Shown here piece after piece: positions 36,217 to 52,505 of a DNA stretch of 64,000 nt. The translations under genes and the position numbers were made by a program. This DNA is from Holophagae bacterium (lineage in GTDB: Bacteria; Acidobacteriota; Holophagae; Acanthopleuribacterales; Acanthopleuribacteraceae). Each line of letters opens with the position of its first letter. The first letter of the stretch is position 1. The notes below the pieces were generated by a model that saw only the letters and a list, made by a program, of their open reading frames with translations, ran no database searches and was not told the DNA's origin. The stretch is taken from contig JAJCXM010000003.1 in NCBI GenBank assembly GCA_029263455.1, positions 1 through 64,000 on the forward strand, given 5' to 3'.

Positions 36217-37437
36217 TTGAAAATCCTACATACATCTGATTGGCACTTGGGTCGTTCCTTACATGGCCACAAGCGTTATGACGAATTCACCGCATTCTTG
36301 GATTGGCTCGTGGAAACGATCCATCAACAAAACGTAGATGTTTTGCTGATTGCAGGTGACATATTCGATACCCAAACACCCAGTAACCGTGCGCAGGAAC
36401 TGTATTACGGCTTTCTGTGCCGCATGGTCTCTTCTCCCTGCCAGCATGTGATCGTCATCGCCGGAAACCACGACTCACCCTCCTTCCTAGACGCGCCTAA
36501 ACATCTTTTACGCGCCCTGAATGTTCATGTTATTGGCTCTGCGACCCAACTTGAAGATCAAGTGGTTCCACTCAAAGACGGCGACGGCAACACAGAATTG
36601 CTTGTTTGCGCGGTTCCCTATTTACGCGATCGTGAAATAAGGATTTCAGAGCCAGGAGAGAGTATTGACGATAAGGAACTCAAACTGATTGCAGGGATAC
36701 GAGGTCACTACGCCCAGGTAGTTCAGTTGGCTCATGAAAAGAGCCAACAAGGTCAGATCCCCATTATCGCCATGGGTCATCTGTTCACCGATGGAGGATT
36801 GACCATTGACGGCGACGGTGTGCGCGCCCTCTACATGGGCAGCCTTGCTCATGTCACAGCCGATATATTTCCGAGCTGCATTCGCTACCTGGCCCTTGGC
36901 CATCTGCACGTACCACAAATGGTGAACGACTCGCCCGTCATGCGTTATAGCGGATCGCCTATTGCTATGGGTTTTGGTGAAGCTAGCCAAATAAAGAGCG
37001 TGTGCTTGATTGATCTTTCGCAAGACAAGACAGGCGTTTCCTTACTAGAGGTGCCCGTTTTTCAGAAATTGATTCGCTTTCAAGGTGATTGGCAGGAGAT
37101 TCGTTCGCAAATACATGATCTCAGCCTATCTGACGAGCAGATTTGGGCCGAAATCATCGTTGAAAGTGACGAGATCATCGGGGACCTTCGTGAACAAGTT
37201 GATGACGCTGTTAGGAATACAGGAATTGACGTCTTGAAACTGAGAATCACACGCACTGGCGAAAGCAATCTTAAGCCGCTTGAACCGAAAGAGAGCTTGG
37301 ACGACTTAGATGAATTTCAGGTTTTCCAAAGATGTATGGACGCCAAAAATGTCCCTGACTCGCAACGAGAAATTTTGCTGGCCTCGTACCTGGAAATTGT
37401 GCGCACGCACCATGAGACCGACGCCCGAGCTGAATAG
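36217..37437 (+). CDS. sbcD: Exonuclease SbcD (Mre11-like nuclease subunit)
   Basis: A 406-aa metallophosphoesterase. The Mre11 motifs are intact: SDWHLGR at the start, GDIFD, GNHD, MGHL and LGHLHVPQ. With SbcC it forms the SbcCD complex that cleaves DNA hairpins and protein-blocked ends, a fitting activity for a genome rich in palindromes. The start is TTG at 36217 with GGAG nine bases upstream. sbcC follows after 9 nt. Confidence 0.95.
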   Translation: MKILHTSDWHLGRSLHGHKRYDEFTAFLDWLVETIHQQNVDVLLIAGDIFDTQTPSNRAQELYYGFLCRMVSSPCQHVIVIAGNHDSPSFLDAPKHLLRALNVHVIGSATQLEDQVVPLKDGDGNTELLVCAVPYLRDREIRISEPGESIDDKELKLIAGIRGHYAQVVQLAHEKSQQGQIPIIAMGHLFTDGGLTIDGDGVRALYMGSLAHVTADIFPSCIRYLALGHLHVPQMVNDSPVMRYSGSPIAMGFGEASQIKSVCLIDLSQDKTGVSLLEVPVFQKLIRFQGDWQEIRSQIHDLSLSDEQIWAEIIVESDEIIGDLREQVDDAVRNTGIDVLKLRITRTGESNLKPLEPKESLDDLDEFQVFQRCMDAKNVPDSQREILLASYLEIVRTHHETDARAE

Positions 37438-37446
37438 GTTTAATGC

Positions 37447-40400
37447 ATGCGTATCCAAAAGATAACCCTTAGAAACCTTAACTCACTGGTCGGAACATGG
37501 CATATCGACTTGACCCACAACGCCTATATTGCCGACGGTATCTTCTCGATAACCGGGCCCACTGGTTCCGGTAAATCAACCATCCTGGATGCCATTTGTT
37601 TGGCGTTATATGGCAGAACACCGCGCCTAGCCAAAATAACCAAGAGTGCCAACGAGATCATGTCCAGAAAGACCGGCGATTGCATGGCCGAGGTTACTTT
37701 TTCAACTCAGGCTGGCGTTTATCGCTGCCATTGGGCGCAACACCGTGCGCATAAAAAAGCGTACAAAGAGCTTCAGAACCCGAAGCACGAGATTTCAGAC
37801 GAAAAAACAGGCAAAATCATCGAATCCTCGCTGCGAGCTGTGGCCACAATCGTTGAACAAGTTACAGGTATGGATTTTGACCGTTTTACGCGTTCTATGT
37901 TGTTGGCCCAAGGCGGTTTTTCTGCCTTTTTACAAGCGGCAGCCAACGAGCGGGCTCCTATTCTCGAACAAATAACGGGCACCGAGATATACAGTCAAAT
38001 ATCCATACGAGTTCATGAGCGCCGCTCCGATGAACGAAATAGGCTAAATATTCTCCAAGCAGAAACAGTTGGCATATTGATTCTGGATCCAGAACAGGAA
38101 GCAGAGATCCAGTCATCACTCAGTTCTAAACAAGTAGAAGAGTCGGACCTGGCTGTCAAATCCGCGGCCGCAGAGAAAGCGATTGCCTGGTTGACCACAA
38201 TCGACAGTTTGAAAAAGGAAATCAGCGGCCTAAAAGGAGAAGCGAGCGATCTGCAAAGTGACATTGCGGATTTCAAGGATGACCGTGACAAACTAGCAAA
38301 GGCTAAGAAAGCTGGGTCACTAGACGGCTTATTCGCGACCCTAACTGCCATTCGAAAAGAACAAGGGGAAGATCAAACGGCTAAGTATAAAGAGGAAGAG
38401 TCTGTTCCTGTGCTGGAACGCTTAGCCACAGAACAAGCTAATTTGCTGAAATTGGCCGAACAGCAAACCCTTAGAGCTAAAGAGGAGCTGAAGACAGCGG
38501 CACCGCTTCTTCAGAGAGTTCGTTCCCTCGACCAGAGTCTTTTGGATCGAAAAACAGCTGTTACGGAAGCTGCAGAGATCTGCCAAAAAGATGCGTTAAT
38601 CATTGGTACGAATAAAAAAACGAGGTTAAGGGAGCTTCAGAATCTCACTGATTGGCAGACTAAACAAAGACTAGTTGACGATTATCTTAAGAATAATGGA
38701 CGGGATGAATGGCTAATTGGCGAACTGGCTGGAGTTGAACAACAGTTAGGCAGCCTGTTCTCCGTGCAAAACGAAATCGTTCAAGTTGAGGCCGATCAAA
38801 ATGTAGCCGCGAAAGCTCTGGAACTGGCATCACAATCACTGCAAAACTGTCAGAAGCTGTGTGACGACCGCAAGCAGGACCTGAACCAGTCACGACAGCA
38901 AATCCAGCAAGGCAAGCATGCTTTAAGCCAGTTATTGGGCGATCGTCAGTTGCGTGAATACCGGAAAGATCTGGAAACGTTGCTACGTGAAATGGCTTTT
39001 CTGGCAAGGATTACTGAGCTTGAAGAGCAGCGAAACAAACTGGAAGATGGCCAACCCTGTCCACTCTGTGGTGCAAACGACCACCCATATGCCGTAGGAA
39101 ATGTCCCTGTCCCAAATGAAAATGAACGCATGATTGAGGCGGTTACGCAGCTAATCAACAACGCTGAAACACAAGAATCCGCGATCGACAAACTTGAAAA
39201 AGCTGAGGTTAAAGCCCGTGAACATTTGATAGAAGCCGACAAGCTGGTGGCAGCAGCAGCTAATCGCAAAGAAGCAGCCGAGAAAACGATAACCGAATTG
39301 CAGGGAAGGTTAAACAAAAGTCGATCCACTTTTAGCGAGCTGAAGCAAGTCGTATCGTTCAAGCTCAAACCCCTTGGTATCACGGAAATCCCTGAATCCA
39401 TTTCGTCGCTGCTGGAATCGATGCGCAAGCGTTTGGCTACCTGGCAGTCTCAGGTCAAGAAAAAGGCTGATATCGATCAACAGATTGCAGGTTTCGAAAG
39501 CGAGATCAAGCGCCTGGATGCGGTTATCAATACCCAAGACAAAGCTCTAGCTGAGAAAAAGGAGCGACTGGAAGCCCTTAGAGAAGCGTACGCAGACGGA
39601 AAAGAGGAACGGATTGCGTTGTATGGGGACGCAATTGCCGACGTTGAAGAGAGACGTTTGAACCAGGCTGTAGCTAGTGCCGAGAATGCCGAAAAGAAGG
39701 CCAGAAACATTTATAACGAACAGCAGCATTTATGCGGCTCCGCGCAAGCCCGCGTTGAAACGTTGACCAAACGCATTGAACAGAGAGAGTCAAACCTGAA
39801 GCAGTCGGAAATTGAGTTTTCCAAAGGCCTCAAGTCCGTCGGCTTCACGGATGAAGCATGTTTTCTTGAGGCCAAGCTAACCATTGAGCAAACGAATGAG
39901 CTGTCTGACAGAGCAAAAGTGCTGGATGATCGCCAATTAGAACTCGAAGCCAGACGCAAGGATCGAGAGTCACGTTTGGCCCTGGAAGCCGCCCTAAAGG
40001 TGACAGACAAGTCGCTATTGGAACTAGAACCCATCTTCAATGCTTACAAAGATACGCTGCAAGAGTTGCAAAACACCATTAGCGGTCTCAAACACAAACT
40101 GCTTGAAAACACCGCCGCCAAAGCGCGTATTGAAGAAAAACATGCGCACATCGAGTCCCAAAAAGAAGAGTGCCGCAGATGGGAAAACCTGCATGAACTC
40201 ATCGGCTCCGCAGATGGTAAAAAGTACCGAAATTTTGCCCAGGGCCTGACCTTCGAGTTGATGATCGGTCACGCCAATCGCCAACTCCAGGACATGACTG
40301 AACGCTACGTATTGATCCAAGACGATTCACAACCCTTGGAACTCAATGTCATTGATAACTATCAAGCTGGTGAAGTCCGATCAACCAAGAATCTATCCGG

Positions 40401-40710
40401 TGGCGAAAGCTTCATTGTCAGCTTGGCTTTAGCCCTTGGTCTGTCTCAAATGGCTAGCAAGAATGTGAGGGTCGATTCGCTTTTTCTGGACGAAGGTTTC
40501 GGCATGCTGGATGAAGAATCCTTAGAAACGGCGCTCGAAACCCTTGCCAACTTACAACAAAACGGCAAGCTAATAGGCATCATTTCCCACGTTCCCGCTC
40601 TAAAGGACCGCATTAGTACGCAAATCAAAGTTACGCCGAAAGCTGGTGGCGTCAGCCTGATTTCAGGGCCCGGATGCGGGAGGCTAACGGAAATAGTCTC
40701 ATCAAATTGA
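37447..40710 (+). CDS. sbcC: Exonuclease subunit SbcC (Rad50-like ATPase)
   Basis: A 1087-aa SMC-like ATPase. Walker A GPTGSGKST lies near residue 34; long coiled coils run both ways from a zinc hook CPLCGANDHP near residue 538; the C-terminal lobe has the LSGGES signature and Walker B LFLDEGFGMLDEES. Length is typical of SbcC. It dimerises through the hook and drives the SbcD nuclease. Operon with sbcD; no terminator is evident downstream. Confidence 0.95.
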   Translation: MRIQKITLRNLNSLVGTWHIDLTHNAYIADGIFSITGPTGSGKSTILDAICLALYGRTPRLAKITKSANEIMSRKTGDCMAEVTFSTQAGVYRCHWAQHRAHKKAYKELQNPKHEISDEKTGKIIESSLRAVATIVEQVTGMDFDRFTRSMLLAQGGFSAFLQAAANERAPILEQITGTEIYSQISIRVHERRSDERNRLNILQAETVGILILDPEQEAEIQSSLSSKQVEESDLAVKSAAAEKAIAWLTTIDSLKKEISGLKGEASDLQSDIADFKDDRDKLAKAKKAGSLDGLFATLTAIRKEQGEDQTAKYKEEESVPVLERLATEQANLLKLAEQQTLRAKEELKTAAPLLQRVRSLDQSLLDRKTAVTEAAEICQKDALIIGTNKKTRLRELQNLTDWQTKQRLVDDYLKNNGRDEWLIGELAGVEQQLGSLFSVQNEIVQVEADQNVAAKALELASQSLQNCQKLCDDRKQDLNQSRQQIQQGKHALSQLLGDRQLREYRKDLETLLREMAFLARITELEEQRNKLEDGQPCPLCGANDHPYAVGNVPVPNENERMIEAVTQLINNAETQESAIDKLEKAEVKAREHLIEADKLVAAAANRKEAAEKTITELQGRLNKSRSTFSELKQVVSFKLKPLGITEIPESISSLLESMRKRLATWQSQVKKKADIDQQIAGFESEIKRLDAVINTQDKALAEKKERLEALREAYADGKEERIALYGDAIADVEERRLNQAVASAENAEKKARNIYNEQQHLCGSAQARVETLTKRIEQRESNLKQSEIEFSKGLKSVGFTDEACFLEAKLTIEQTNELSDRAKVLDDRQLELEARRKDRESRLALEAALKVTDKSLLELEPIFNAYKDTLQELQNTISGLKHKLLENTAAKARIEEKHAHIESQKEECRRWENLHELIGSADGKKYRNFAQGLTFELMIGHANRQLQDMTERYVLIQDDSQPLELNVIDNYQAGEVRSTKNLSGGESFIVSLALALGLSQMASKNVRVDSLFLDEGFGMLDEESLETALETLANLQQNGKLIGIISHVPALKDRISTQIKVTPKAGGVSLISGPGCGRLTEIVSSN

Positions 40711-40940: not shown

Positions 40941-41486
40941 GTGGAAGTTAAAGTAAACCAAGATGATACCCAACCGATGTCCATTCTTACGCTGCAAGGG
41001 CCGATGTTTCAACCCTTGCTCGTATCCATGGCTGAAGGCATTCACGCTCTGACATCAGAGTCGAACGCCAAAATGGGTAAAAGACTGGTGCATGTTTTGA
41101 TCGAATTGGGTCAGAACATTCTCCACCACTCAGACGAACGCGTGGCCTTGACCAGTGGTGGATCGGTCGGTATAGGCCGTTTAGATCTATTGGAGACCGA
41201 TGATGATTGGGTGGTTGCCGCGACAAATCTCGTCCGTCTGAGCAAGGTTCCCGATTTAGAATCCAGATGTTCTCAACTCAACAGCAAGCAAGAAAATTTG
41301 AAACACAAGGTAATGAAGACCCTAAAGAGCCCGACCACAGGCCATGGCGGAGGCATCGGTTTGATGCATATGGCACGTCTAAGCGATAGCAGAATTGAGA
41401 CGCGGTTCATCGAGAAAGACTCCGACCGTGTGAGCTTCGAAATCAAGGTCCGGATCAGCAAGAAAGCCAATAATCATCCCACTTAA
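40941..41486 (+). CDS. siaB: SiaB-like protein kinase (GHKL-type, DUF6272)
   Basis: A 181-aa protein that fits the SiaB family of partner-switch kinases. The N-box is seen in LIELGQNILHHSDE and the glycine-rich ATP lid in GHGGGIGLMHMARLS. In Pseudomonas aeruginosa SiaB phosphorylates the anti-anti-sigma-like protein SiaC, reversing the action of phosphatase SiaA. The start appears to be GTG at 40941; an in-frame ATG lies at 40977. A SiaC homologue lies 7 kb downstream, convergent. It heads a run of four same-strand genes ending with the PP2C phosphatase. Confidence 0.85.
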   Translation: MEVKVNQDDTQPMSILTLQGPMFQPLLVSMAEGIHALTSESNAKMGKRLVHVLIELGQNILHHSDERVALTSGGSVGIGRLDLLETDDDWVVAATNLVRLSKVPDLESRCSQLNSKQENLKHKVMKTLKSPTTGHGGGIGLMHMARLSDSRIETRFIEKDSDRVSFEIKVRISKKANNHPT

Positions 41487-41507
41487 CTCAACTTTGGAGG
41501 AACACAT

Positions 41508-42674
41508 ATGACAGAAGCGCTCAACGACACCTTTTTAGACAAAATGCGTTTGACAACCGATCCTTTAGCCGAAGATGCCGTTGCATGCGTCTTAAGCCGC
41601 GGAGCTGGCTATGAATGGACCATTAATAAGCTTTTGGATCAATTGGTGTCGAATAGTTCACCTCAACCCGCGGACTTGCCTGCCGAGCTGCAGAGCTATT
41701 TCAGTACCACTTCGCAGCTACCTCCGTGGGCCGATATGTCCAAAATTCAAATGGGCGAATGTTTCTTCGAAGCCTACGGAGCGGAATGCGTGCTCGTGTT
41801 GTTTTGCAAGTCGCTTCCCGAATGTTATGCCGCTCACCGTGGAGCCGAAGTCTTGTACCGAACGGGAAGATTAATGCAGACGGGCAAAAATCTTAAACCA
41901 CTTACACGCCGTATCATTGAGACAGCGCAATTCCTATTGAATGTGATGGCACCTGATGGTTTTGGGCCTCAAGGAACAGGCCTGGTAACCGCGCAAAAAA
42001 TTAGACTGATTCACGCATCCATCAGAGCCTTCCTGAAACAGCAAGATTGGGATACTGGCCAGTTTGGCGAGCCCATAAATCAGGAAGATATGGCTGGAAC
42101 ACTGTTGGCGTTTTCGCTACAGACCCTTGAAGGCCTTAGAGCGTTGAAACTGGACATGAAAGCAGAGGAAGAGGAAGCTTTTCTCCACACCTGGAACGTG
42201 GTTGGCTATGTCATGGGGATCGACGAGCGTTTGTTGATGCCTGACATCAAATCGGCACGCGCATTGTGGGCCAAGATACGACAACGTCAATTCGGAGCAT
42301 CAACCGCGGGACAAGAGCTAACTAAGTCACTGATCGAATTTTTAGAGCAGATCGTTCCGGGCAATGCGCTACGCGAAATGCCCGTCTATCTTATGCAACA
42401 GTTGATGGACCCGGAAATGCGCAAATGGTTGGCTATTCCCGAAACGCATTCGTGGCTAGACACTGTGCTCACCAAAGCGCTGGAAGTGCTATTCCGTATT
42501 GAAACAAGTCTCGAGCTGGAAGATCCTCGCTTTCGGAAAGTGGTTTCCCTGTTTAGTGAGAAACTACTGCAGGGTTTAGTGCTTTCGTGGAACGGCGAAA
42601 AACAAGTGCCCTTCGAAATCCCACCTTCATTGCAGGGGAATTGGCCAGACCTCTCCCCTACCAAAGCCAAGTAG
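41508..42674 (+). CDS. MpaB/rubber-oxygenase-type (DUF2236) protein
   Basis: A 388-aa protein with the helical DUF2236 domain found in latex-clearing protein Lcp and MpaB: GAEVLYRTGRLMQTGKN, RRIIETAQFLLNVM, then KIRLIHASIRAFL, where the His is the candidate haem ligand, and WNVVGYVMGIDERLLMP. Members studied so far are b-type haem oxygenases cleaving polyisoprene or other prenyl chains. No signal peptide is seen, so it is cytosolic or membrane-associated. GGAGG precedes the ATG; it follows siaB after 21 nt and precedes the membrane protein by 9 nt. A function in a signalling operon is unexpected. Confidence 0.8.
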   Translation: MTEALNDTFLDKMRLTTDPLAEDAVACVLSRGAGYEWTINKLLDQLVSNSSPQPADLPAELQSYFSTTSQLPPWADMSKIQMGECFFEAYGAECVLVLFCKSLPECYAAHRGAEVLYRTGRLMQTGKNLKPLTRRIIETAQFLLNVMAPDGFGPQGTGLVTAQKIRLIHASIRAFLKQQDWDTGQFGEPINQEDMAGTLLAFSLQTLEGLRALKLDMKAEEEEAFLHTWNVVGYVMGIDERLLMPDIKSARALWAKIRQRQFGASTAGQELTKSLIEFLEQIVPGNALREMPVYLMQQLMDPEMRKWLAIPETHSWLDTVLTKALEVLFRIETSLELEDPRFRKVVSLFSEKLLQGLVLSWNGEKQVPFEIPPSLQGNWPDLSPTKAK

Positions 42675-42683
42675 GAGGACTGC

Positions 42684-43358
42684 ATGCATCAACCCTGGCT
42701 TAACTTAGAAACATACTCACCGCTTATGCTGACGTTGTTCATCAGCGGCTGCGTCCTCTGGGTCGTTGTCTATGTGATTGTCATTTACAACATTCGCGTA
42801 AACCAGTTTGTTGAGATACCGCTCATCGGTGTTTCCGCCAATATTTGCTGGGAATTCATTTGGAGCTTTGTTTACCAGCCTGATATGGGGAAGTTGGTCC
42901 TAATTGGCTATGCCGCTTGGTTTTTTCTAGATTGTTTTATCTTCTATGCGCTGCTTCGCTATGGTTGGAAGCAATTGAATACCCCGGCACTGCGAAACAA
43001 TTCTAAGAAGTTGATCTTATTCATGACGGTGTCTTGGGCTGCTCTATTTATTGGCCTGGCTCAGAGCCACTATGATACGCCCATTGGCACGATTTCGGCC
43101 TATTGGGACAACCTTGTCTTTTCAGGCGCCTATTGCTGGATGATCCTAAATGCGACTAGCCCCAAGTATTACTCCTCCGCAGCTGGTTGGTGTAAAGGAC
43201 TAGGCACCGGTCTCATAGGTGTAGCCGTCCTGATCCAATGGCCAGACAACAGCTTCTTGTGGGCCATCGTTATCACCACCGCTTTGTTGGACGCCTTCTA
43301 TTTGGTACAGCTAAGAAGAATCCACGCTGGCCATGCAACTCAACCACAAGGATCCTAA
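42684..43358 (+). CDS. Seven-helix membrane protein resembling transmembrane terpene cyclases
   Basis: A 224-aa protein with about seven membrane helices. The segment IGVSANICWEFIWSFVY with Glu57, and Asp203 in LLDAFYLVQLRR, recalls the PaxB/Pyr4-type terpene cyclases, in which a Glu in helix 2 and an Asp in the last helix are needed for proton-started cyclisation. This is a pattern match from memory and could mislead, as short helical membrane proteins look alike. AGGAGG lies 5-6 nt before the ATG. It directly follows the DUF2236 oxygenase, which would fit a shared prenyl substrate. Confidence 0.6.
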   Translation: MHQPWLNLETYSPLMLTLFISGCVLWVVVYVIVIYNIRVNQFVEIPLIGVSANICWEFIWSFVYQPDMGKLVLIGYAAWFFLDCFIFYALLRYGWKQLNTPALRNNSKKLILFMTVSWAALFIGLAQSHYDTPIGTISAYWDNLVFSGAYCWMILNATSPKYYSSAAGWCKGLGTGLIGVAVLIQWPDNSFLWAIVITTALLDAFYLVQLRRIHAGHATQPQGS

Positions 43359-43395
43359 TCTACGAGCGCGCAGCTAACGTCAGGAATTCTATTAC

Positions 43396-46300
43396 GTGAT
43401 TCAACTTCTAGACCAAGAAAAATGGCAGGTTTGGCATCAGGATCCGGATTTCCATTACTACCGCACGTCCACCGTAGATGGCCAGGAAGTTCTGATTAAG
43501 GTCATGAAGAAGACGCACCCTACCTGGGAGGAAAGTGCCGTTCTGCATCGAGAGTTTGACCAAGCAAAAGAACTCGGGCAAGCGCAAATCTTTCATCCTT
43601 TGGGTTTTGTTCAGGCAGCTAATCGGGCGGTTTTGGTTTGGCCATTTATGAGCCAAAAACCGTTAAGCGCGTTTCTAGGAGGATCCGACCCGGAACCTGG
43701 GGTCCATATTGAGTTGTTTATCGCGATTGCCGAGGCGCTCGCCAGCTTGCACCAAGCTGGCTGGGCACACTACCAGCTCAACACCAACGGGATCTGGTTT
43801 GCTGATGGCAAAGCGTTCTTAACGGATCTAAACCGAATCGGACCCTTCAAAAACGAGGAACCGAAACCTTGGTCGAACCGTTATCTGCCCTATCAGGCAC
43901 CTGAACAGTCAGGTCGAACAGCCCAATCACCTGATTTCCGCGCCGATTTTTACGCCTTGGGCTGCGTGTATTTTCAGATCCTTACCGGGCAACCTCCCTT
44001 TAAGGTTGAGGAACCATCCAAACTCGTTCATGCCCATTTAGCCAAAATTCCAACCCCATGCCATGAGTTGGTAAAGGGCATACCAACCGGCCTTAGCCAT
44101 CTGATTCAAGTCTTACTAGATAAATCACCCAAACAGCGTTATCAAAGCGCGTTTGGCGTGTTACAGGACCTCAGAATAGCGGCAGATATATGGGGGGAGA
44201 ACAAGACTTTAACTACTTTTTTTCCCAGTCACCGTCAACACTCTCAGCAGTTTAAGCTATCTCAACGTTTGTTTGGACGTGAGTTAGAGCAGGAACAAGT
44301 TGATCAGGCTTTGGCCCGCGTGCGCTCAGGTGGCTCTGAGCTGGTGTGGATCAGTGGTCCGTCCGGTGTCGGGAAAACCGCGCTCGCCATGGCACTAAAG
44401 GCGAAACAGGGTCCCGAGCGCATCCTTGTTGGACAAGGCGATACACTCGGGCAGGTTCGTCCATACCAAGCGTTACTTGAAGCCATATCGCAGTTCATCC
44501 AACAAGTGATCGGTCTTCCTGATGACGAACTATCTATTTGGCGATCAGACATCCAAAAGGCGCTTGGCGCCAATGCAGCGGTATTGGTCGAAGCCGTTCC
44601 CAGCTTGAAGCTGCTCTTGGACAACGTATCCAAGGTTCCTCAACTTCAAGCCCACCAAAGTAAGAACCGTTTTTTCATGGTCGTTCAGCAACTCTTGACC
44701 TGTCTTGCCCGCAAAGATAGCCCGCTACTTCTTATCATGGACGATTTTGACCAAGCTGATTCCGCCAGCCTTGAGTTGCTGGAATGGGTTCTGCGGCAAC
44801 TTCAGATTCCACATTTCATGGTCGTGGTAACAAGTCAGGACACCCGCGAAACCCCAAACCTTCCATTCAACCAATTTTTATTAGGAGTGGAAGAAAGCGG
44901 TCTACCACTCTTGTCCCTTCATTTACACAACCTTGTGGCCGAGCAGCTCGTCAAATTCTTGGTTGAAAGCCTGGCAATATCCGAGAACCGGGCTGGTACG
45001 CTTGCACAAGTGCTACTTGAAAAAACCCACGGAAACCCATTCTTCGTTCATCAGTTCCTAGCTGATCTGCACCGCCAATCTCTCATTTGGTTGGACATCC
45101 AAGCCGGATGGCATTGGCAAACCGAGCACCTAAACCAAATGGAGGTCACGGATAACGTCGTCGACTTCATCTTGGTGAAGTTGAAGAGATTGAATCCCGA
45201 ACGCCAATACCTGTTGTCGATGGCTGCCTGTCTAGGAAACAGATTTGATGCCGCCATCATGGCAGAAGTACCTGAAATCGCTTCCTCGTTGGAACGTAAC
45301 CTGCCCTATTTCGTGCAGCAAGAATTGATCATCCCCGAATTGGGTCCAAGCCAACCAGAAATGGGGTCCACGACAAGCTATCAATTTGCTCATGTTCGGA
45401 TTCGCGCCGCCGCCTTGTCGCTGCAAGCAGCCAATACAATTGCCAAGATTCATTTCGAGTTATCGCAGGTTTTCCAAGTGTTATGGACCTCAGATCCTGA
45501 GGTTCTTAACGAATTACTTTTCCACTTAAAGGCAGGTCTCGCATGGCGGCCTGACGGCGTTAACCCTGCGGAGGCATGTCGTTGGAATTTACGCGCTGGC
45601 CGTAAAGCACGCGCATCGGGCGCCAACAAGGCTGCATCTGAGTTTCTTGAAGATGCTATCGACCTGTTCAACCATACTTGGTGGGGAAATGACTACGAGT
45701 TTTCGTTTGAGTTGTTCCTGACGGCAGCTGAGTGTGCGTACCTCATCGCCCAATTCGAGCGCGCGGAACACCACTTCAACGAGCTTTTCAAGAACGCTCA
45801 TTCGGCCATAGATCATTGCCGAATACTGAACCTAAAGGTAGTCCTCAATACCCATCGCGATCGTGCCGACGACGCCGTTAAGTTTGGTCTAGAAGCACTA
45901 GCGTTGCTTGGTGTAAAGATCCCACTCCGTCCAAAAAAGTGGCAGTTGGCTCTCGCCATGATTCGCATCCGATGGCTGTTGCTTAGGCATCGTTTTAAAT
46001 TGACTGAAATGAACAAAATGGCTGATGACAGCATGGCCTTAGCCATGGAGATTTGCGGCAACCTTCAAGCACCCGCCTACATACTCAATTCAGATTTGTA
46101 TGCCAAGGTCACCTTCACGATGGTGGAAATCACCCTTCGCAATGGAACGAGGTCTATTAGCTCCGTGGCCTTCATCAATTTCAGTGTCGTCACCGGAAGT
46201 GCCTTAGGCGACTATAAACTTGGCCGCAAATACGCCAACTTTGCCCTTAAATGGAGTACAGAATTTCAAGACAATTGGAGTCGAGGTAGATGTCAATTGA

Positions 46301-48591
46301 TCTTTGGCGCCGTCATCAACCATTGGATGAAACCTGCGGCTCAGAACTTGGAATACTTGGCTACAGCCCGCATTCTCAACCAGGAGTCGGGCGACCTTTT
46401 GGGTGTCAGCTACGCTAGCCATTTCGAGACCATGACACGTTGGGTCACCGGTCAGCCCATCGACAGTGTGCTGGGCCGAGTAGATCAACTGATCCAGTGG
46501 ACCGAATCATTACGTTACACGCACTACGGGCTGGATGCTGTTGCTCAAATGGCGCGCAACCTTAAAGGATTAACCCATTCATTTGGGTCATTTTCAGACG
46601 AGTCATTTGACGAAGAATCCTGGTGTGAAGTGGCGCTCAATGCCGTTAATGTTGTGGAGGCTGTGCTTTACCGTGTCATCAAGATGCAGGCTACCTACCT
46701 CTCCGGGCAATGGACCGAAACGCTGGCTCAATCTAGGGCAACGGAACCTCATCTTTTTAGTGTGCTTGGTCAATTGATCCTGCCCCAATACCACTTCTAC
46801 ACTTTCTTGGCATTATGTGCAGCTAATCCGAGCTCGATGGCACGCAATGATAATAAATCGGCATTGAAGCACCTGTCTAAGATGAAGAAGTGGGCCGCTG
46901 TTGGACCTGAAAATTTCGCGCACCTCTATCACCTGATGCAAGCGGAATGGGCCAAACGCTCCGCTGACCATGTTGAATCCGAAAAACAATATGAGCAGGC
47001 TATTATTGCAGCGCGTCACAACGGCTTTATCCAAGACGAAGCTCTTGCCCACGAACGTTACGGGGTTTATCTGTGGGAACGCAGCAAGAAATTAAGCGCT
47101 CGTGCCTATTTCGAAGAGGCAATTCGACTTTACAGGGCTTGGGGCGCTGAGGCTAAGTGTAAACACCTGCTACGCACATGTCCTGCCTTCAAGAAGAACG
47201 ATTCGAGTGAATCCATATTTCAAAAGCAAACCGTTCAATCGCTGCAAGCAGATGCGCTTGACTTGAACACGGTTCTTAAAGGGGCCCAAACCCTTAGTGG
47301 TGAAATGCGTGAGGATCGCCTCATCGAAACCATCATGGATATGGCCATGGAATCGGCAGGCGCACAAATGGGAGCGTTGGTATTTTCTAACGATGATCAA
47401 CTGCAATTGGCGTGTCTGGTTAGAGCAGGAAAGCATGAAGCCGTTCATACCGACAGCCTGCAAAGTGGTCAGGCATTGGCGATCGGACCTCTTCATTTCG
47501 CCATGCGCACAAAGGAAGCCCTTGTTCTTGATGATGCCTTTAAAGATCCTCGATTTTCGAATGACAGCTATATCCATAACCACAAAACACGCTCTCTCGT
47601 ATGTGCCCCCTTACATCTCAAGGGACGACTATTAGGCATGCTTTATTTGGAGAACAATGCATTGACCCACGCATTCACGCCGAGCCGAATAGGTATTTTG
47701 CAGTGGCTTGGAACTCAGGCGGCCATCGCCCTGGAGAATGCCAGGCTTTATGCTGACATGGAGAGCCATTCGCAGCGATTGGAACAAAGAGTAGCTGAGC
47801 GTACGCTCGTTATTCAGGAAAAAAACCAGCAAATTCTTTCCAGTATTCGTTATGCGCAACGGATTCAGGAGTCATTGCTTCCCTCCGAGGCGATGCTGAA
47901 TGATCACATCACCGAAAAATTCTTAATATTCAAACCGCGTGACCTTGTTTCCGGTGATTTCTTCTGGGTTCGCAACGAAGGGTCCTTGTTAGTTGCGGTG
48001 GTTGATTGCACGGGCCACGGAGTTCCAGGCGCTTTTATGTCCTTGGTAGGTTTGTCGTTACTTAACCAAATTGTCAGTCGTCATATGGCTAACGATCCCG
48101 CCAGTATCTTGACCCAGTTAGATGTCTTGGTTCGAAACACTCTGAAGCAATCTGACGGCCCGGGCCACACCTCTGAAGGCATGGATGTAGCCCTATGCCA
48201 ATGGTTTCCTGAAGAAGGCCGCCTGATATTTGCTGGAGCTAAACGCCCCCTGTACATTGTCCGAAGCAAGGCTGGTTCTTCCACATTAGAGGAAGTTAAA
48301 GGCGATAATCGGACCATTGGAGGCTATGGCAAGACCAAGAGTTCCACCTACCACAACCGCGAATGTCTCGTGCAACCGGGCGATATGCTCTACCTGGCGA
48401 GCGACGGGTTCGCTGATCAGAACGATCCCCAAAACAAGAAGTACGGCAGCAAGACACTCAAAATCCTGCTCAGTCAGATCGCCTCGTGGGATGTAGAAAC
48501 CCAGAAAGAGACGTTAGTTCACGAACTCAACCGGCACCAAGGGAATGAAGCTCAGCGCGACGACATTACGCTGCTAGGGCTAAGACTCTGA
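43396..48591 (+). CDS. Giant sensor phosphatase: pseudokinase, ATPase, TPR, GAF, PP2C
   Basis: A 1731-aa cytosolic protein. Residues 1-265 are a protein-kinase fold with Lys35 (VLIK) and an APE motif, but the catalytic loop reads HYQLNTN instead of HRDLKxxN and DFG reads DLN, so it is probably a pseudokinase. Residues about 292-570 are a STAND-type AAA ATPase (Walker A GPSGVGKT at 321-328, Walker B LLLIMDDFD). A long TPR-like helical region follows, then a GAF domain (about 1305-1450), a coiled coil and a SpoIIE/PP2C phosphatase (about 1495-1731) with all metal Asp residues: SGDFFW, VDCTGHG, SDGFAD, RDDITL. It may replace SiaA as the phosphatase for the SiaC homologue. The start is GTG with AGGA 11 nt upstream. 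Confidence 0.9.
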   Translation: MIQLLDQEKWQVWHQDPDFHYYRTSTVDGQEVLIKVMKKTHPTWEESAVLHREFDQAKELGQAQIFHPLGFVQAANRAVLVWPFMSQKPLSAFLGGSDPEPGVHIELFIAIAEALASLHQAGWAHYQLNTNGIWFADGKAFLTDLNRIGPFKNEEPKPWSNRYLPYQAPEQSGRTAQSPDFRADFYALGCVYFQILTGQPPFKVEEPSKLVHAHLAKIPTPCHELVKGIPTGLSHLIQVLLDKSPKQRYQSAFGVLQDLRIAADIWGENKTLTTFFPSHRQHSQQFKLSQRLFGRELEQEQVDQALARVRSGGSELVWISGPSGVGKTALAMALKAKQGPERILVGQGDTLGQVRPYQALLEAISQFIQQVIGLPDDELSIWRSDIQKALGANAAVLVEAVPSLKLLLDNVSKVPQLQAHQSKNRFFMVVQQLLTCLARKDSPLLLIMDDFDQADSASLELLEWVLRQLQIPHFMVVVTSQDTRETPNLPFNQFLLGVEESGLPLLSLHLHNLVAEQLVKFLVESLAISENRAGTLAQVLLEKTHGNPFFVHQFLADLHRQSLIWLDIQAGWHWQTEHLNQMEVTDNVVDFILVKLKRLNPERQYLLSMAACLGNRFDAAIMAEVPEIASSLERNLPYFVQQELIIPELGPSQPEMGSTTSYQFAHVRIRAAALSLQAANTIAKIHFELSQVFQVLWTSDPEVLNELLFHLKAGLAWRPDGVNPAEACRWNLRAGRKARASGANKAASEFLEDAIDLFNHTWWGNDYEFSFELFLTAAECAYLIAQFERAEHHFNELFKNAHSAIDHCRILNLKVVLNTHRDRADDAVKFGLEALALLGVKIPLRPKKWQLALAMIRIRWLLLRHRFKLTEMNKMADDSMALAMEICGNLQAPAYILNSDLYAKVTFTMVEITLRNGTRSISSVAFINFSVVTGSALGDYKLGRKYANFALKWSTEFQDNWSRGRCQLIFGAVINHWMKPAAQNLEYLATARILNQESGDLLGVSYASHFETMTRWVTGQPIDSVLGRVDQLIQWTESLRYTHYGLDAVAQMARNLKGLTHSFGSFSDESFDEESWCEVALNAVNVVEAVLYRVIKMQATYLSGQWTETLAQSRATEPHLFSVLGQLILPQYHFYTFLALCAANPSSMARNDNKSALKHLSKMKKWAAVGPENFAHLYHLMQAEWAKRSADHVESEKQYEQAIIAARHNGFIQDEALAHERYGVYLWERSKKLSARAYFEEAIRLYRAWGAEAKCKHLLRTCPAFKKNDSSESIFQKQTVQSLQADALDLNTVLKGAQTLSGEMREDRLIETIMDMAMESAGAQMGALVFSNDDQLQLACLVRAGKHEAVHTDSLQSGQALAIGPLHFAMRTKEALVLDDAFKDPRFSNDSYIHNHKTRSLVCAPLHLKGRLLGMLYLENNALTHAFTPSRIGILQWLGTQAAIALENARLYADMESHSQRLEQRVAERTLVIQEKNQQILSSIRYAQRIQESLLPSEAMLNDHITEKFLIFKPRDLVSGDFFWVRNEGSLLVAVVDCTGHGVPGAFMSLVGLSLLNQIVSRHMANDPASILTQLDVLVRNTLKQSDGPGHTSEGMDVALCQWFPEEGRLIFAGAKRPLYIVRSKAGSSTLEEVKGDNRTIGGYGKTKSSTYHNRECLVQPGDMLYLASDGFADQNDPQNKKYGSKTLKILLSQIASWDVETQKETLVHELNRHQGNEAQRDDITLLGLRL

Positions 48592-48993
48592 TCAATCGAC
48601 GCTTGGTTTTTCCTCTTCTGTAGGACAGAAAATGATCGGGACTCTGATGTCCTCGGCAAATTCTTTTCCAGACTCCAGCATGTCATCATCATCTGGTTCA
48701 TACAGCCACTTCACTACCACTTCGCCTTGCTGCTCGACATAGGACTCTAGAATCTTGAATAGGTCGATAATGCATTTAAGTGAACTGGTATTTAGGTAAT
48801 CAAATTTCAGGTTGAGCGCGATGGGCTTTTGAATCTCAGCCACATACTGCTGAATCCATTCATAAATTGGCGTAAAGAATTCGAAGGCGTTCTCAGGATA
48901 CGAAGAACCTTCCATTTCCAATAACCCTCGACTAGCAGAAAAAGAAACAGCCAACGTGTATTTGGTCTTGGCTATGGATAGATCTTCCATCAC
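48592..48993 (-). CDS. siaC: SiaC-like regulatory phosphoprotein (DUF1987)
   Basis: A 133-aa protein with the SiaC hallmarks SSYPENAFEFF and YLNTSSLKCIIDLFKILE. In P. aeruginosa SiaC the threonine in the equivalent NTSS is the phosphosite (T68); here it is Thr69, or 68 if the second Met is the start. Unphosphorylated SiaC activates the diguanylate cyclase SiaD. Its stop abuts the stop of the giant phosphatase gene, and it follows the diguanylate cyclase gene after 64 nt on the same strand. Confidence 0.88.
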   Translation of the reverse strand: MMEDLSIAKTKYTLAVSFSASRGLLEMEGSSYPENAFEFFTPIYEWIQQYVAEIQKPIALNLKFDYLNTSSLKCIIDLFKILESYVEQQGEVVVKWLYEPDDDDMLESGKEFAEDIRVPIIFCPTEEEKPSVD

Positions 48994-49057
48994 CCTACTC
49001 TGACCCCCGAAATTTTGAATGTCACTATATCAGTCAAGCGCATTGGCAGCAACGCGT

Positions 49058-49798
49058 TCATGGTGATACGCCATCGATCACCATTTGGTTGCGACCTCTA
49101 ATCTTGGCCTCATACATCGCCTGATCGGCGCGTAACAAGAACACGTCTCGGTTAACATCCCGTGTACTTGAGAACTGGGCTAATCCAAGACTGATCGTGA
49201 TCGTAATTTTGTGCACACCGATAGCAAAAGGATCGGCGCTAACTAGCGTCCGTATCTTTTCGGCGACCAGTGCTGCATCGGCAACTTCAATTCCAGGTAG
49301 GATCAAGAGAAACTCTTCGCCCCCGTAACGGCCAAACGTGTCTTGCTGCCGAACCTGACCTTTAATTCGCTGCGAGACGGAGCGCAGGACTTCATCACCG
49401 ACTTGATGTCCAAATTCATCATTGATTTGTTTGAAATGATCTAGATCGATTAGGATTAGAGCAAGTGGCGAGTCATGTCTTAAGGCCTTGGCAAACTCTT
49501 TTCCATATTGATCCATCAAGTAATAACGATTATTGACCTCAGTCAAAGAATCAAAGATAGCAAGATGGTAATTCTCGCGGTTTAGGCGTTCGATTTCTTC
49601 TTTGGCTTTAATCAAACGTCTGTAGCTGAGATCGCCCGCTGCTGTAAGTTTCATGCTATCGCGTAGCAGCGACGCAAATTGGTCGCACAGCGCAATGTAT
49701 GCGGATCGCCAGGCGTCCACACTTTCATTGGCTGACGCTCTATCTTGTTCGATAAGTAACTGGGCTTCATTTAGAACGTTCTGTTCCGCTTTGAACAT
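49058..49798 (-). CDS. Diguanylate cyclase (GGDEF), SiaD-like output
   Basis: A 246-aa protein with an N-terminal helical region of about 90 residues and a GGDEF domain. The active site is GGEEF (RYGGEEFLLILPG), with an RxxD product-inhibition site (RQQD) five residues before it. DSLTEVNNRYYL and IDLDHFKQINDEFGHQVGDEVL are typical. It makes c-di-GMP. Its position before siaC suggests the role SiaD has in Pseudomonas. I chose ATG 49798 (GGA upstream); ATG 49828 and TTG 49849 are alternatives. Confidence 0.9.
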   Translation of the reverse strand: MFKAEQNVLNEAQLLIEQDRASANESVDAWRSAYIALCDQFASLLRDSMKLTAAGDLSYRRLIKAKEEIERLNRENYHLAIFDSLTEVNNRYYLMDQYGKEFAKALRHDSPLALILIDLDHFKQINDEFGHQVGDEVLRSVSQRIKGQVRQQDTFGRYGGEEFLLILPGIEVADAALVAEKIRTLVSADPFAIGVHKITITISLGLAQFSSTRDVNRDVFLLRADQAMYEAKIRGRNQMVIDGVSP

Positions 49799-50105
49799 AT
49801 ACTTTTTCCGTGGTTTGATGTTAATCATGCAGAGATTGAACCTATTCAAGCGTTAAATAAACGCACTTTCCAGTCAAGCATAAACCACCACGCAACACTC
49901 CCCAACGGTTTTGTCGCATGTGCGATGGCAAAAACGTAAAAATACGTCGCGTTAGCCGAAGTTGCAGACTTCGACTTCAAATAAATAAGACCCACTCCGA
50001 ACTTAGGCCGATTGAAACCCTTCCGGTCAGCTTGACTGATGACCTCAATTAGTCGAAACTAAACCGGTTAAACTGACGTTCTAAAGGGATTTTCGAGGGC
50101 CTGGA

Positions 50106-52505
50106 ATGAACATTGTCCTGTTGACTATGTTTAGCATTATGCAAAGCAATACAGGTGGGATCAAACTTGAGATAAGTGGTGGTCCACTCGCAAAGCCCGT
50201 GTTTGTCAGCATATACAATCCAGATCAGCGATTGACATTGGCACAAGAAGTTCTTGAAGCAACTCACATAGAGTTAAGTGACCTAAGTACAGGTACCTAC
50301 CGAATGACGGTTACCAGCGGTTCACAGCTTGTTCAAAGCCACAAAATCCTGGTCACATCGAATCAGGTCACTCAAATCGACTTAGATCTAGATCTACTCT
50401 TAACGGTAGATGACGTCCTCACCGTGCATGCGGTTTCCAGACGCAAACAGAATATATTGAAGGCGCCAGCAGCCGTTTCTGTTATTCGCGGCTTTGACCT
50501 TGAGGCAGGCTCACAAGCCGGCCAACTCCCCTTTGCGCTAAACCATTTGCCAGGGGTACAAATTAGCCAAACCGGGACCTTTGATTTCAACATCAACACA
50601 CGCGGTTTGAATTCTTTTCTCAATCGCCGAGTCGTGGTCTTGCTTGACGGACGAAACACCGCCGTCACGCAATTGGGCAATCAAGAATGGTTCGCCATGG
50701 GATTGGCACCTCAAGATATTGAAAGTATGGAGTTGGTACACGGCCCTGGCTCGGCCCTCTACGGAGCTAATGCATTTAATGGGATTCTAGATATCCGCAG
50801 CAAAGCACCTGCCGATAACCCAGGTGGCAGCCTACAACTGACGCTAGGCGAGCAGGACATGTGGGGAGGCCACCTCCAGCATAATTGGCGTATCAGTGAC
50901 CGATTAGCCATTGGCATTAAAGCGGGCACCTTTTTTTCAGATCAGTGGGAACAATCCCGCACGGCCGACGATCCCGTCGAATACCCAGGCGTTCCTACCG
51001 AAGTTCTACCGCTTGATCGTCCTGGCTTGGCGCCCAACGGAACGACCGTCAACTTGGATACTCGTCTCGAGAGTCGTCACGCCTCGCTTAGATTGGATTT
51101 CCGGCCCAATCAAACGTGGCTTATGACTGCCGAGCTAGGGACCGCGGTGGCCGAAAATTTTGTCGGTGTCGCCGACATTGGCAGAGGCCACATACGCGAG
51201 GTAGAAAGGCCCTGGGCGCGCCTGGCAGCTGAAACAGAATCCCTGCATTTCTCGTTCTGGCGTACAGAACGCAAGACACCGGAAGATGAACATTTCCTCG
51301 CATCAGGAGGCATTCTCTGGGAAGACAGTTATGACCAACAGGCAGAGTTGACTTGGGATCCCCTGCTCCCAAATGATGATTTCACTTTGGTTGTTGGGGC
51401 CAGTTACCATTGGCAGAACCTCGACACTTCCAAACCTGGTGATCCGGAAAATCGGCAATCATCCATTCAGGAGCCTGTTAAAGCGGATCAACAATCCCTA
51501 TTCTCCCAAGTAACTTGGCAGCCTAATGCTGAATGGGAGGTCGTGCTCGCTGATCGCTATGATCGATCTAGCCTCCACCCCAGTCGTCATTCGCCGAAAG
51601 CGGCGCTGGTATGGATTCCCAGACCCAATCAAAGCCTTAGGCTGACCTATAACAAAGCCTTTCAACCACCCAGTTTTCCGGACTTCTTTCTCTACGCACA
51701 AGCGGGAGCACTTAATTTGAGTGGCCTGGAAGAAGCACTAGAATCCGCCGTTGGTCAATCTCTACCCACTGATTTTGGGCTCACGCCCATCTTGGCGGTA
51801 GGCAATCAATCGCTTGAGGTGGAACGAATCGAAACAATCGAATTAGGCTATCGTGGCTTATTGGCAAACAGTTGGTTTGCGACTTGTAATATTTATCGCA
51901 GTGAGGCACACGATTTTGTCACCGAACTGCTACCGGGCGCTAATCCTAATATCGCGCCTTACCAACTACCAGCTTCCTTGCCAGACGCACTTGCGCCTAT
52001 TATTCTGAATGCGTTACAAGGCGCGCTGGGCCCTTTTTACGCCGGGCTCGCCAATGCGGCAGATGGTTCTCCATATCTGGCTCTTAGTTATACCAACGCC
52101 GGTAAAGTTAATTTGACAGGCATTGATGCGTCCTTGATATGGACGCCGACCCAATCCTGGCAGTTTGATGGTTTTTATCATTGGCTTGATTACGACAGCC
52201 AAGATGAAAACCTTGCTTCAAACGCTCCAAGCCGGAGCCTGGGAGTGGGTTTTGTATTTACGCAACCGAAATGGAACGCGAGTTCGCACTTGAATTTCCG
52301 TAATGGTTACGATTCCGCAGGCGGAATATTCGCTGGCTATGTGCCGAAATACACGGCATGGGACGCACAAGTTTCTTACCAAATCACCAGACAATGGCAG
52401 TTGTTATTTAACGGCAGTAATTTGCTGGACGACGCCCATTATGACCAGTTTGGCGGTGCTTTGATCGGTCGCATGACTAGCTTGAGCTGCCGCTTGACTT
52501 GGTAG
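50106..52505 (+). CDS. TonB-dependent outer-membrane receptor
   Basis: A 799-aa protein. A carboxypeptidase-regulatory-like domain at 18-95 is followed by a plug domain (KAPAAVSVIRGFDLEAG, NHLPGVQISQTG, LDGRNTAV, MELVHGPGSALYGANAFNGILDI) and a 22-strand-type barrel, ending RMTSLSCRLTW with a terminal aromatic residue. It imports a siderophore or other large ligand with TonB energy. GAGGG lies ahead of the ATG. The signal peptide is short and not typical. No iron-regulator site is obvious; it is divergent from the diguanylate cyclase gene. Confidence 0.93.
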   Translation: MNIVLLTMFSIMQSNTGGIKLEISGGPLAKPVFVSIYNPDQRLTLAQEVLEATHIELSDLSTGTYRMTVTSGSQLVQSHKILVTSNQVTQIDLDLDLLLTVDDVLTVHAVSRRKQNILKAPAAVSVIRGFDLEAGSQAGQLPFALNHLPGVQISQTGTFDFNINTRGLNSFLNRRVVVLLDGRNTAVTQLGNQEWFAMGLAPQDIESMELVHGPGSALYGANAFNGILDIRSKAPADNPGGSLQLTLGEQDMWGGHLQHNWRISDRLAIGIKAGTFFSDQWEQSRTADDPVEYPGVPTEVLPLDRPGLAPNGTTVNLDTRLESRHASLRLDFRPNQTWLMTAELGTAVAENFVGVADIGRGHIREVERPWARLAAETESLHFSFWRTERKTPEDEHFLASGGILWEDSYDQQAELTWDPLLPNDDFTLVVGASYHWQNLDTSKPGDPENRQSSIQEPVKADQQSLFSQVTWQPNAEWEVVLADRYDRSSLHPSRHSPKAALVWIPRPNQSLRLTYNKAFQPPSFPDFFLYAQAGALNLSGLEEALESAVGQSLPTDFGLTPILAVGNQSLEVERIETIELGYRGLLANSWFATCNIYRSEAHDFVTELLPGANPNIAPYQLPASLPDALAPIILNALQGALGPFYAGLANAADGSPYLALSYTNAGKVNLTGIDASLIWTPTQSWQFDGFYHWLDYDSQDENLASNAPSRSLGVGFVFTQPKWNASSHLNFRNGYDSAGGIFAGYVPKYTAWDAQVSYQITRQWQLLFNGSNLLDDAHYDQFGGALIGRMTSLSCRLTW

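Follow-up and report, generated by a model that had tools for sequence, protein, structure and literature searches.

What do genes for a haem oxygenase-like protein and a seven-helix membrane protein do between the kinase and the phosphatase of a bacterial partner switch? The question is raised by a locus in a 64,000-nucleotide stretch of DNA from a Holophagae bacterium of the Acanthopleuribacteraceae (GenBank assembly GCA_029263455.1, contig JAJCXM010000003.1, positions 1 to 64,000; hereafter the window). Our answer, to which we give a probability of roughly 0.45, is that the locus would be a cassette that makes a ligand and senses it, coupled to a Sia-type partner switch that controls cyclic di-GMP (c-di-GMP).

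Organization and conservation of the locus

The window has a G+C content of 49% and belongs to a genome of 6.2 Mb distributed across 40 contigs. Six open reading frames (ORFs) occupy positions 40941-49849, all of them present where an earlier interpretation made from the letters of the window (the sequence-only reading) had placed them:

40941..41486, + strand: SiaB-like GHKL protein kinase (DUF6272), 181 amino acids (PF19788, NF038262)
41508..42674, + strand: MPAB/Lcp-type (DUF2236) haem oxygenase-like protein, 388 amino acids, cytosolic (PF09995)
42684..43358, + strand: Pyr4-type seven-transmembrane (TM) terpene-cyclase-like membrane protein, 224 amino acids (PF25129)
43396..48591, + strand: 1731-amino acid protein with pseudokinase, AAA_16/STAND, helical/TPR-like, GAF and PP2C regions (Pkinase, AAA_16, GAF, SpoIIE)
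48595..48993, - strand: SiaC-like phosphoprotein (DUF1987; PF09345)
49061..49849, - strand: SiaD-like diguanylate cyclase with a helical stalk (PF00990; likely start ATG at 49798)

The four genes of the + strand are separated by gaps of 9-37 bases, and the siaC-like and GGDEF genes are convergent with the 3' end of the gene for the 1731-amino acid protein, forming two convergent operons. A congener (locus L005) carries all six genes in identical order and on identical strands (identities to the window: SiaB 45%, MPAB 77%, Pyr4 79%, kinase/phosphatase 66%, SiaC 74%, and GGDEF 64%). Because order and strands are kept, the co-location of the six genes is not a matter of chance, an explanation that this conservation and the wider survey of Pyr4 neighbourhoods (below) rule out together. 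Other members of the family have siaB-siaC-GGDEF as a single operon (L028, L030, L031) or siaB-siaC (L029), each without MPAB and Pyr4, and a search of these members for a Pyr4 homologue found none. Within the family the Sia core is therefore probably the older element, and the input formed by the enzymes and the multidomain phosphatase would be peculiar to the window's genus, the only one in which SiaB and SiaC were seen in cis with MPAB and Pyr4. Although relatives have such enzyme-free operons, passive insertion of foreign genes into a canonical Sia operon was rejected, because the enzymes arrive with the 1731-amino acid protein, whose relatives are Pyr4-linked too.

The two putative enzymes

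The sequence-only reading had recognized a DUF2236 oxygenase and a membrane protein, left unnamed, between kinase and phosphatase, and both are borne out. The membrane protein matches the Pyr4-TMTC family (PF25129) with 62.8 bits against a gathering cut-off of 27, and its AlphaFold2 model shows seven TM helices (pLDDT 88.7). E57 and D83 are conserved in all 44 aligned sequences and D203 in 43 of the 44, and the homologues of Streptomyces and Nostoc carry the same acidic residues in the same columns. E57 and D203 correspond by position and motif to E60 and D214 of DmtA1 (the DmtA1 sequence itself lay outside the alignment), a characterised cyclase whose pair has been described as equivalent to the one proposed to be catalytic in Pyr4 (PMC6173783). 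By profile and residues the protein is a Pyr4-type, terpene-cyclase-like protein with its acidic pair intact. In a VIA-align comparison the model was nearest to the KDEL receptor, cystinosin and SWEET (Z 11-14; next unrelated chains about 6), while a Foldseek search with it returned only E-values above 0.1 and a search of PDB sequences with the Pyr4 profile gave no real match; as judged from the model, the likeness is a resemblance of fold, not of function. A plasmid search using the window's Pyr4 yielded nothing.

The oxygenase-like protein matches PF09995 (MPAB_Lcp_cat) with 71 bits, and a profile of ten MPAB homologues matches the rubber oxygenase LcpK30 with 113 bits. Three LcpK30 residues that are near-invariant in DUF2236 and required for Lcp activity (PMC6311187), R164, T168 and the axial haem ligand H198, are represented by R135, T139 and H169, which are invariant among the ten homologues; the distal haem lysine (K167) is replaced by E138.

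Survey of Pyr4 loci

Homologues of Pyr4 beyond the genus were sought by scanning genome contigs and by searching with PF25129 in 295 genomes of Bacteroidia, 347 from the window's phylum, and 299 from the order to which genome G105 (Chitinophagaceae) belongs; the order of genome G293, searched directly, added no further Pyr4 loci. The neighbourhoods of 43 Pyr4 genes were read besides that of the window. The Pyr4 tree split into two clades (support 96-98%): a linked clade of 36 loci (37 genes) from Bacteroidota and Acidobacteriota, the window included, and an orphan clade of seven loci that grouped with the sequences from Streptomyces and Nostoc. At 34 of the 36 linked-clade loci, and at none of the seven orphan-clade loci, an oxidoreductase gene lies no more than three genes from Pyr4 (Fisher 1e-6; the surveyed genomes are partly related, and such p-values serve as guides only).

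The oxidoreductase of the linked clade is MPAB at 14 loci (one of them, L041, detected by tblastn only), a phytoene-desaturase-like flavin adenine dinucleotide (FAD) enzyme at 19, and another flavoprotein at one. The FAD enzyme is a relative of HpnE and of phytoene/zeta-carotene desaturases. MPAB and the FAD enzyme never occur together at a linked-clade locus; a genome-wide search for the FAD enzyme in 13 genomes of the MPAB type found it in none, and in the 15 genomes with an FAD-type locus every match to it adjoins Pyr4 (in G103 a partial copy lies on another contig end). The window's Pyr4 clusters with FAD-linked Pyr4s (93/89 in one tree) despite its MPAB neighbour, which makes a swap of the oxidoreductase type beside it likely. 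The replacement of one non-homologous enzyme by another beside a constant Pyr4 indicates that both may serve the same reaction step. An ordinary terpenoid gene cluster was rejected as an explanation, since neither a prenyltransferase nor a P450 was seen near the Pyr4 gene.

Some loci show further variation. In L054 (6044-8984), Pyr4 is accompanied by a different flavoprotein of 735 amino acids and a histidine kinase, possibly representing a third type of oxidoreductase. Pyr4 is duplicated in tandem in L052 (7758-9206), and the FAD enzyme in L050 (8869-12652).

Interchangeable signalling proteins

At 30 of the 36 linked-clade loci a signalling protein is encoded within three genes of Pyr4; the orphan loci have no nearby signalling genes save one histidine kinase three genes off. 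The linked sensors are of several kinds (six-transmembrane (6TM), MASE7, 7TMR-DISM, and proteins with kinase-fold (PK), AAA and GAF domains), and so are the outputs (PP2C, class III cyclase, histidine kinase). In L006-L009 the protein that follows Pyr4 joins a 6TM sensor domain, one for which Pfam has no name, to a histidine kinase; in L018 the same domain (37% identity, E 8e-42) is joined to PP2C. Of 15 genomes searched, three have this domain, each of them once and always adjacent to Pyr4. The 6TM domain seen fused to class III cyclase is related to it (hhalign probability 97%), and a histidine kinase in L059 has such a related domain too. The PK-AAA-GAF proteins of L012 and L020 end in a class III cyclase, whereas the same scaffold ends in PP2C in the window, and in three genomes (G105, G144, G399) the sole full-length PK-AAA-GAF protein adjoins Pyr4. 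SiaC follows the output: among Pyr4-positive genomes it is present in all six with a PP2C output and absent from all eight with a cyclase output. In this respect the sequence-only reading has to be turned around, for it took the oxygenase and the membrane protein to be genes embedded in a Sia system, while the survey presents them as the conserved core of a separate cassette with a varying output.

Other arrangements were also noted. L010 and L011 have Pyr4 followed by a MASE7-HisKA_2 histidine kinase and a response regulator; a common origin of these MASE7-type sensors and the 6TM sensors was considered but is unsupported by hhalign. In one order of Bacteroidia, MPAB, Pyr4 and a 7TMR-DISM PP2C protein stand at a fixed site near apparent rpsO/pnp and rpsP genes (L016, L017, L019, L022; judged from ORF starts only). 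The PK domain of the PK-AAA-GAF-cyclase protein of Bacteroidota (L012: 10689-15836) retains the HKD motif, whereas the PK domains of the window, L005, L020 and L025 are degenerate.

With Pyr4 as the constant element and sensors and outputs varying around it, one may ask whether the Pyr4-like protein is itself a seven-TM receptor that signals by contact to the adjacent transducer, the oxidoreductase supplying or turning over a ligand or chromophore. The fold nearest to the KDEL receptor, cystinosin and SWEET, the carotenoid-desaturase-like character of the FAD enzyme, and the window's PK-AAA-GAF protein, which has no TM helices and could use a membrane partner, would all suit a receptor. Nevertheless, the acidic residues of the cyclases are retained, the alignment contains no invariant lysine for a Schiff base, many neighbours of Pyr4 already own a 6TM or 7TMR-DISM sensor, and the tandem copies of Pyr4 and of the FAD enzyme look more enzyme-like, so that we regard a receptor, though a serious rival, as unlikely. 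Much less probable still is co-transcription of convenience, in which uncoupled genes would share an operon and the Sia switch would sense something unrelated through the GAF/AAA protein. Such an arrangement would agree with the enzyme-free siaB-siaC-GGDEF operons of the family relatives and with the PK-AAA-GAF paralogues common in them, but the association across Bacteroidota and Acidobacteriota, the mutually exclusive oxidoreductases and the shuffled sensors go far beyond chance. G003 and G005, two of these relatives, each encode five to seven PK-AAA-GAF-type paralogues and lack Pyr4.

The putative Sia-type switch and its multidomain phosphatase

The preferred reading, a cassette producing and sensing a ligand, needs a sensor with a suitable output, for which the 1731-amino acid protein is the candidate in the window. 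It comprises a pseudokinase (27-250), an AAA_16/STAND ATPase (291-477), a helical, TPR-like region, a GAF domain (1307-1446) and a SiaA-type PP2C domain (1528-1730). Most of this composition had been anticipated: the kinase-fold N-terminus is indeed degenerate (HYQLN replaces HRDLK and the catalytic Asp is gone), the ATPase has intact Walker A and B motifs, and the aspartates that bind metal in PP2C are all in place (GDFF at 1520, DCTG at 1537, SDGF at 1669, and QRDD at 1720); the TPR repeats are plausible, but Pfam calls none. SiaA is absent in its membrane-bound form only: no TM helix is predicted in the 1731-amino acid protein, yet the C-terminus aligns with positions 378-657 of the 658-position profile NF038263 (206 bits) and the sole significant match of the PP2C domain among PDB sequences is SiaA (6k4e, 125 bits). 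The notion of a Sia-type switch whose cytosolic multidomain phosphatase is linked to a chemical step thus gains support.

The remaining components bear the family hallmarks attributed to them. The SiaB-like kinase matches PF19788 (DUF6272/SiaB family) above its cut-off (78 bits), NF038262 (SiaB_fam_kinase) just under it (84.9 against 85 bits), and SiaB of Pseudomonas aeruginosa (6kko_A) with 23 bits; its N-box reads ELGQNILHH and its G-box GGGIGL. The SiaC-like protein matches PF09345 with 138 bits and P. aeruginosa SiaC (6kko) with 85 bits, and in the alignment to the latter its phosphosite T69 lies in the same motif, YLNTSS. The GGDEF protein matches PF00990 (155 bits), SiaD (7e6g, 104 bits) and the SiaD profile NF038266 (166 bits, cut-off 290), its GGEEF motif and RxxD I-site (RQQD, five residues upstream) are intact, and the stalk Asp of SiaD is kept by alignment. 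Whether SiaC is phosphorylated at T68 is determined in P. aeruginosa by SiaB and SiaA; the phosphorylation prevents SiaC-SiaD binding, while SiaC lacking the phosphate attaches to the stalk of SiaD and activates SiaD (PMC8457831). Given T69 in the same motif, a stalked GGDEF protein with an I-site and a SiaB-like kinase, the same logic is, by homology only, the natural reading of the SiaB, SiaC, PP2C and GGDEF set of the window.

Control may also run in the opposite direction, the signalling proteins governing the enzymes, so that a second messenger or phosphorylation would adjust how much of a membrane lipid is made; such control has been inferred for kinase and cyclase genes in some biosynthetic clusters. 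For the AAA part of the 1731-amino acid protein there is a match of 86 bits to TIGR03903 (TOMM system kinase/cyclase fusion), which takes its name from biosynthetic gene clusters, and the genes are closely packed in one operon. The outputs, however, differ among loci and act, as second-messenger enzymes and partner switches, on targets throughout the cell, the sensors track the enzymes, and neither MPAB nor Pyr4 has a recognizable regulatory domain; this direction of control, the second serious rival, appears improbable to us.

Proposed mechanism

For the cassette coupled to a Sia switch, we envisage that the MPAB haem protein oxidises a hydrophobic membrane substrate, probably an isoprenoid, and that the Pyr4-like protein cyclises the oxidised product through acid catalysis by E57 and D203. 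The order of the two enzymes mirrors that of Pyr4 pathways, in which an oxidised prenyl chain serves as the substrate of the cyclase. An example in which a P450 provides the oxidised chain for a Pyr4-type cyclase is available (PMC13307353). The effector would be the hydrophobic, probably isoprenoid-derived product of both enzymes, and the pseudokinase-AAA-GAF part would read this product, its depletion, or the oxygen or redox state that it reports, setting the activity of the C-terminal SiaA-type PP2C up or down. By homology, PP2C would dephosphorylate SiaC, the SiaB-like kinase would rephosphorylate it, and unphosphorylated SiaC would activate the SiaD-like diguanylate cyclase and so set the level of c-di-GMP.

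The sequences themselves establish which domains are present, that the catalytic residues are intact, that the genes form two convergent operons, and that an oxidoreductase recurs with Pyr4 and an interchangeable signalling protein in other bacteria; the genes do co-occur elsewhere, as the congener keeps the locus and MPAB, Pyr4 and signalling genes recur together across Bacteroidota. Several points weigh against the proposed mechanism. Partly related genomes make the Fisher values of the survey optimistic; two linked-clade loci have no oxidoreductase in reach and six no signalling gene; with the distal haem lysine lost to glutamate, the chemistry of MPAB may differ; no prenyltransferase or prenyl synthase was found within the cassettes, so that the substrate would be a housekeeping lipid; the SiaD stalk residue Q86 is Tyr in the window's GGDEF protein; and enzyme activity, ligand and phosphotransfer at these loci stand as predictions.

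A broader proposal, which we hold slightly more tentatively than the mechanism for the window itself, is that of a widespread bacterial principle: an MPAB or a carotenoid-desaturase-like oxidoreductase and a Pyr4-type cyclase might make a terpenoid or oxidised isoprenoid signal for interchangeable sensors with cyclic AMP/cyclic GMP, c-di-GMP/Sia, or two-component outputs, the window being the c-di-GMP version.

Two neighbours of the locus have no evident link to it, an SbcD/SbcC nuclease pair immediately upstream (36217-40710) and a TonB-dependent receptor downstream (50106-52505).

Comparison with known systems

We view the locus as a Sia-type switch whose input, linked to enzymes, would be new, and there is a real chance that the cassette represents a new type of signalling system. 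In the open-access literature (subscription papers excluded) no description was found of signalling operons that contain Pyr4-like or DUF2236 proteins. The largest survey of bacterial Pyr4 found there recorded 1107 homologues and took further only the 264 with terpenoid genes nearby (PMC13307353), a restriction that would leave a signalling-linked clade aside. If the proposal is correct, terpene-cyclase-type enzymes serve bacterial signal transduction beyond natural-product synthesis, a candidate ligand pathway, encoded alongside, becomes available for the orphan membrane sensors of cyclases, kinases and PP2C phosphatases, what the 6TM anchors of cyclases sense becomes testable, and the Sia c-di-GMP switch has a new upstream input.

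With SiaABCD of P. aeruginosa the window shares a SiaB-family kinase, a SiaC with the NTSS site, a SiaA-type PP2C and a stalked SiaD-like cyclase with GGEEF and I-site. It differs in that SiaA is membrane-bound, whereas the window's phosphatase forms the C-terminal part of a soluble pseudokinase-AAA-GAF protein, in having two convergent operons, with siaB and the phosphatase gene separated by the genes for MPAB and the Pyr4-like protein, and in that its proteins fall short of the NCBIfam equivalog cut-offs. The Pyr4-like cyclases (Pyr4, XiaE/XiaH, DmtA1, TylF) have PF25129, seven TM helices and the conserved Glu of TM2 and Asp of TM7 in common with the window's protein, which belongs to a separate clade with signalling genes and one oxidoreductase as neighbours instead of prenyltransferases and P450s. 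The oxygenase-like protein shares its fold family and the haem-pocket residues R164, T168 and H198 with DUF2236/MPAB proteins and LcpK30; in contrast to LcpK30, it is cytosolic, encoded in a signalling operon, and has Glu for the distal haem Lys. The nearest parallels in design are lipophilic-signal pairs of the CqsA/CqsS type and ligand-regulated 6TM adenylate cyclases: enzyme genes stand beside the sensor, some of the linked sensors are likewise 6TM domains fused to histidine kinase or class III cyclase, and the receptor domain of CqsS was shown to be able to drive a class III cyclase (PMC4821796). Unlike in those pairs, the enzymes here are an oxidoreductase and a Pyr4-like protein, not CqsA, and the candidate sensor of the window is the soluble PK-AAA-GAF protein.

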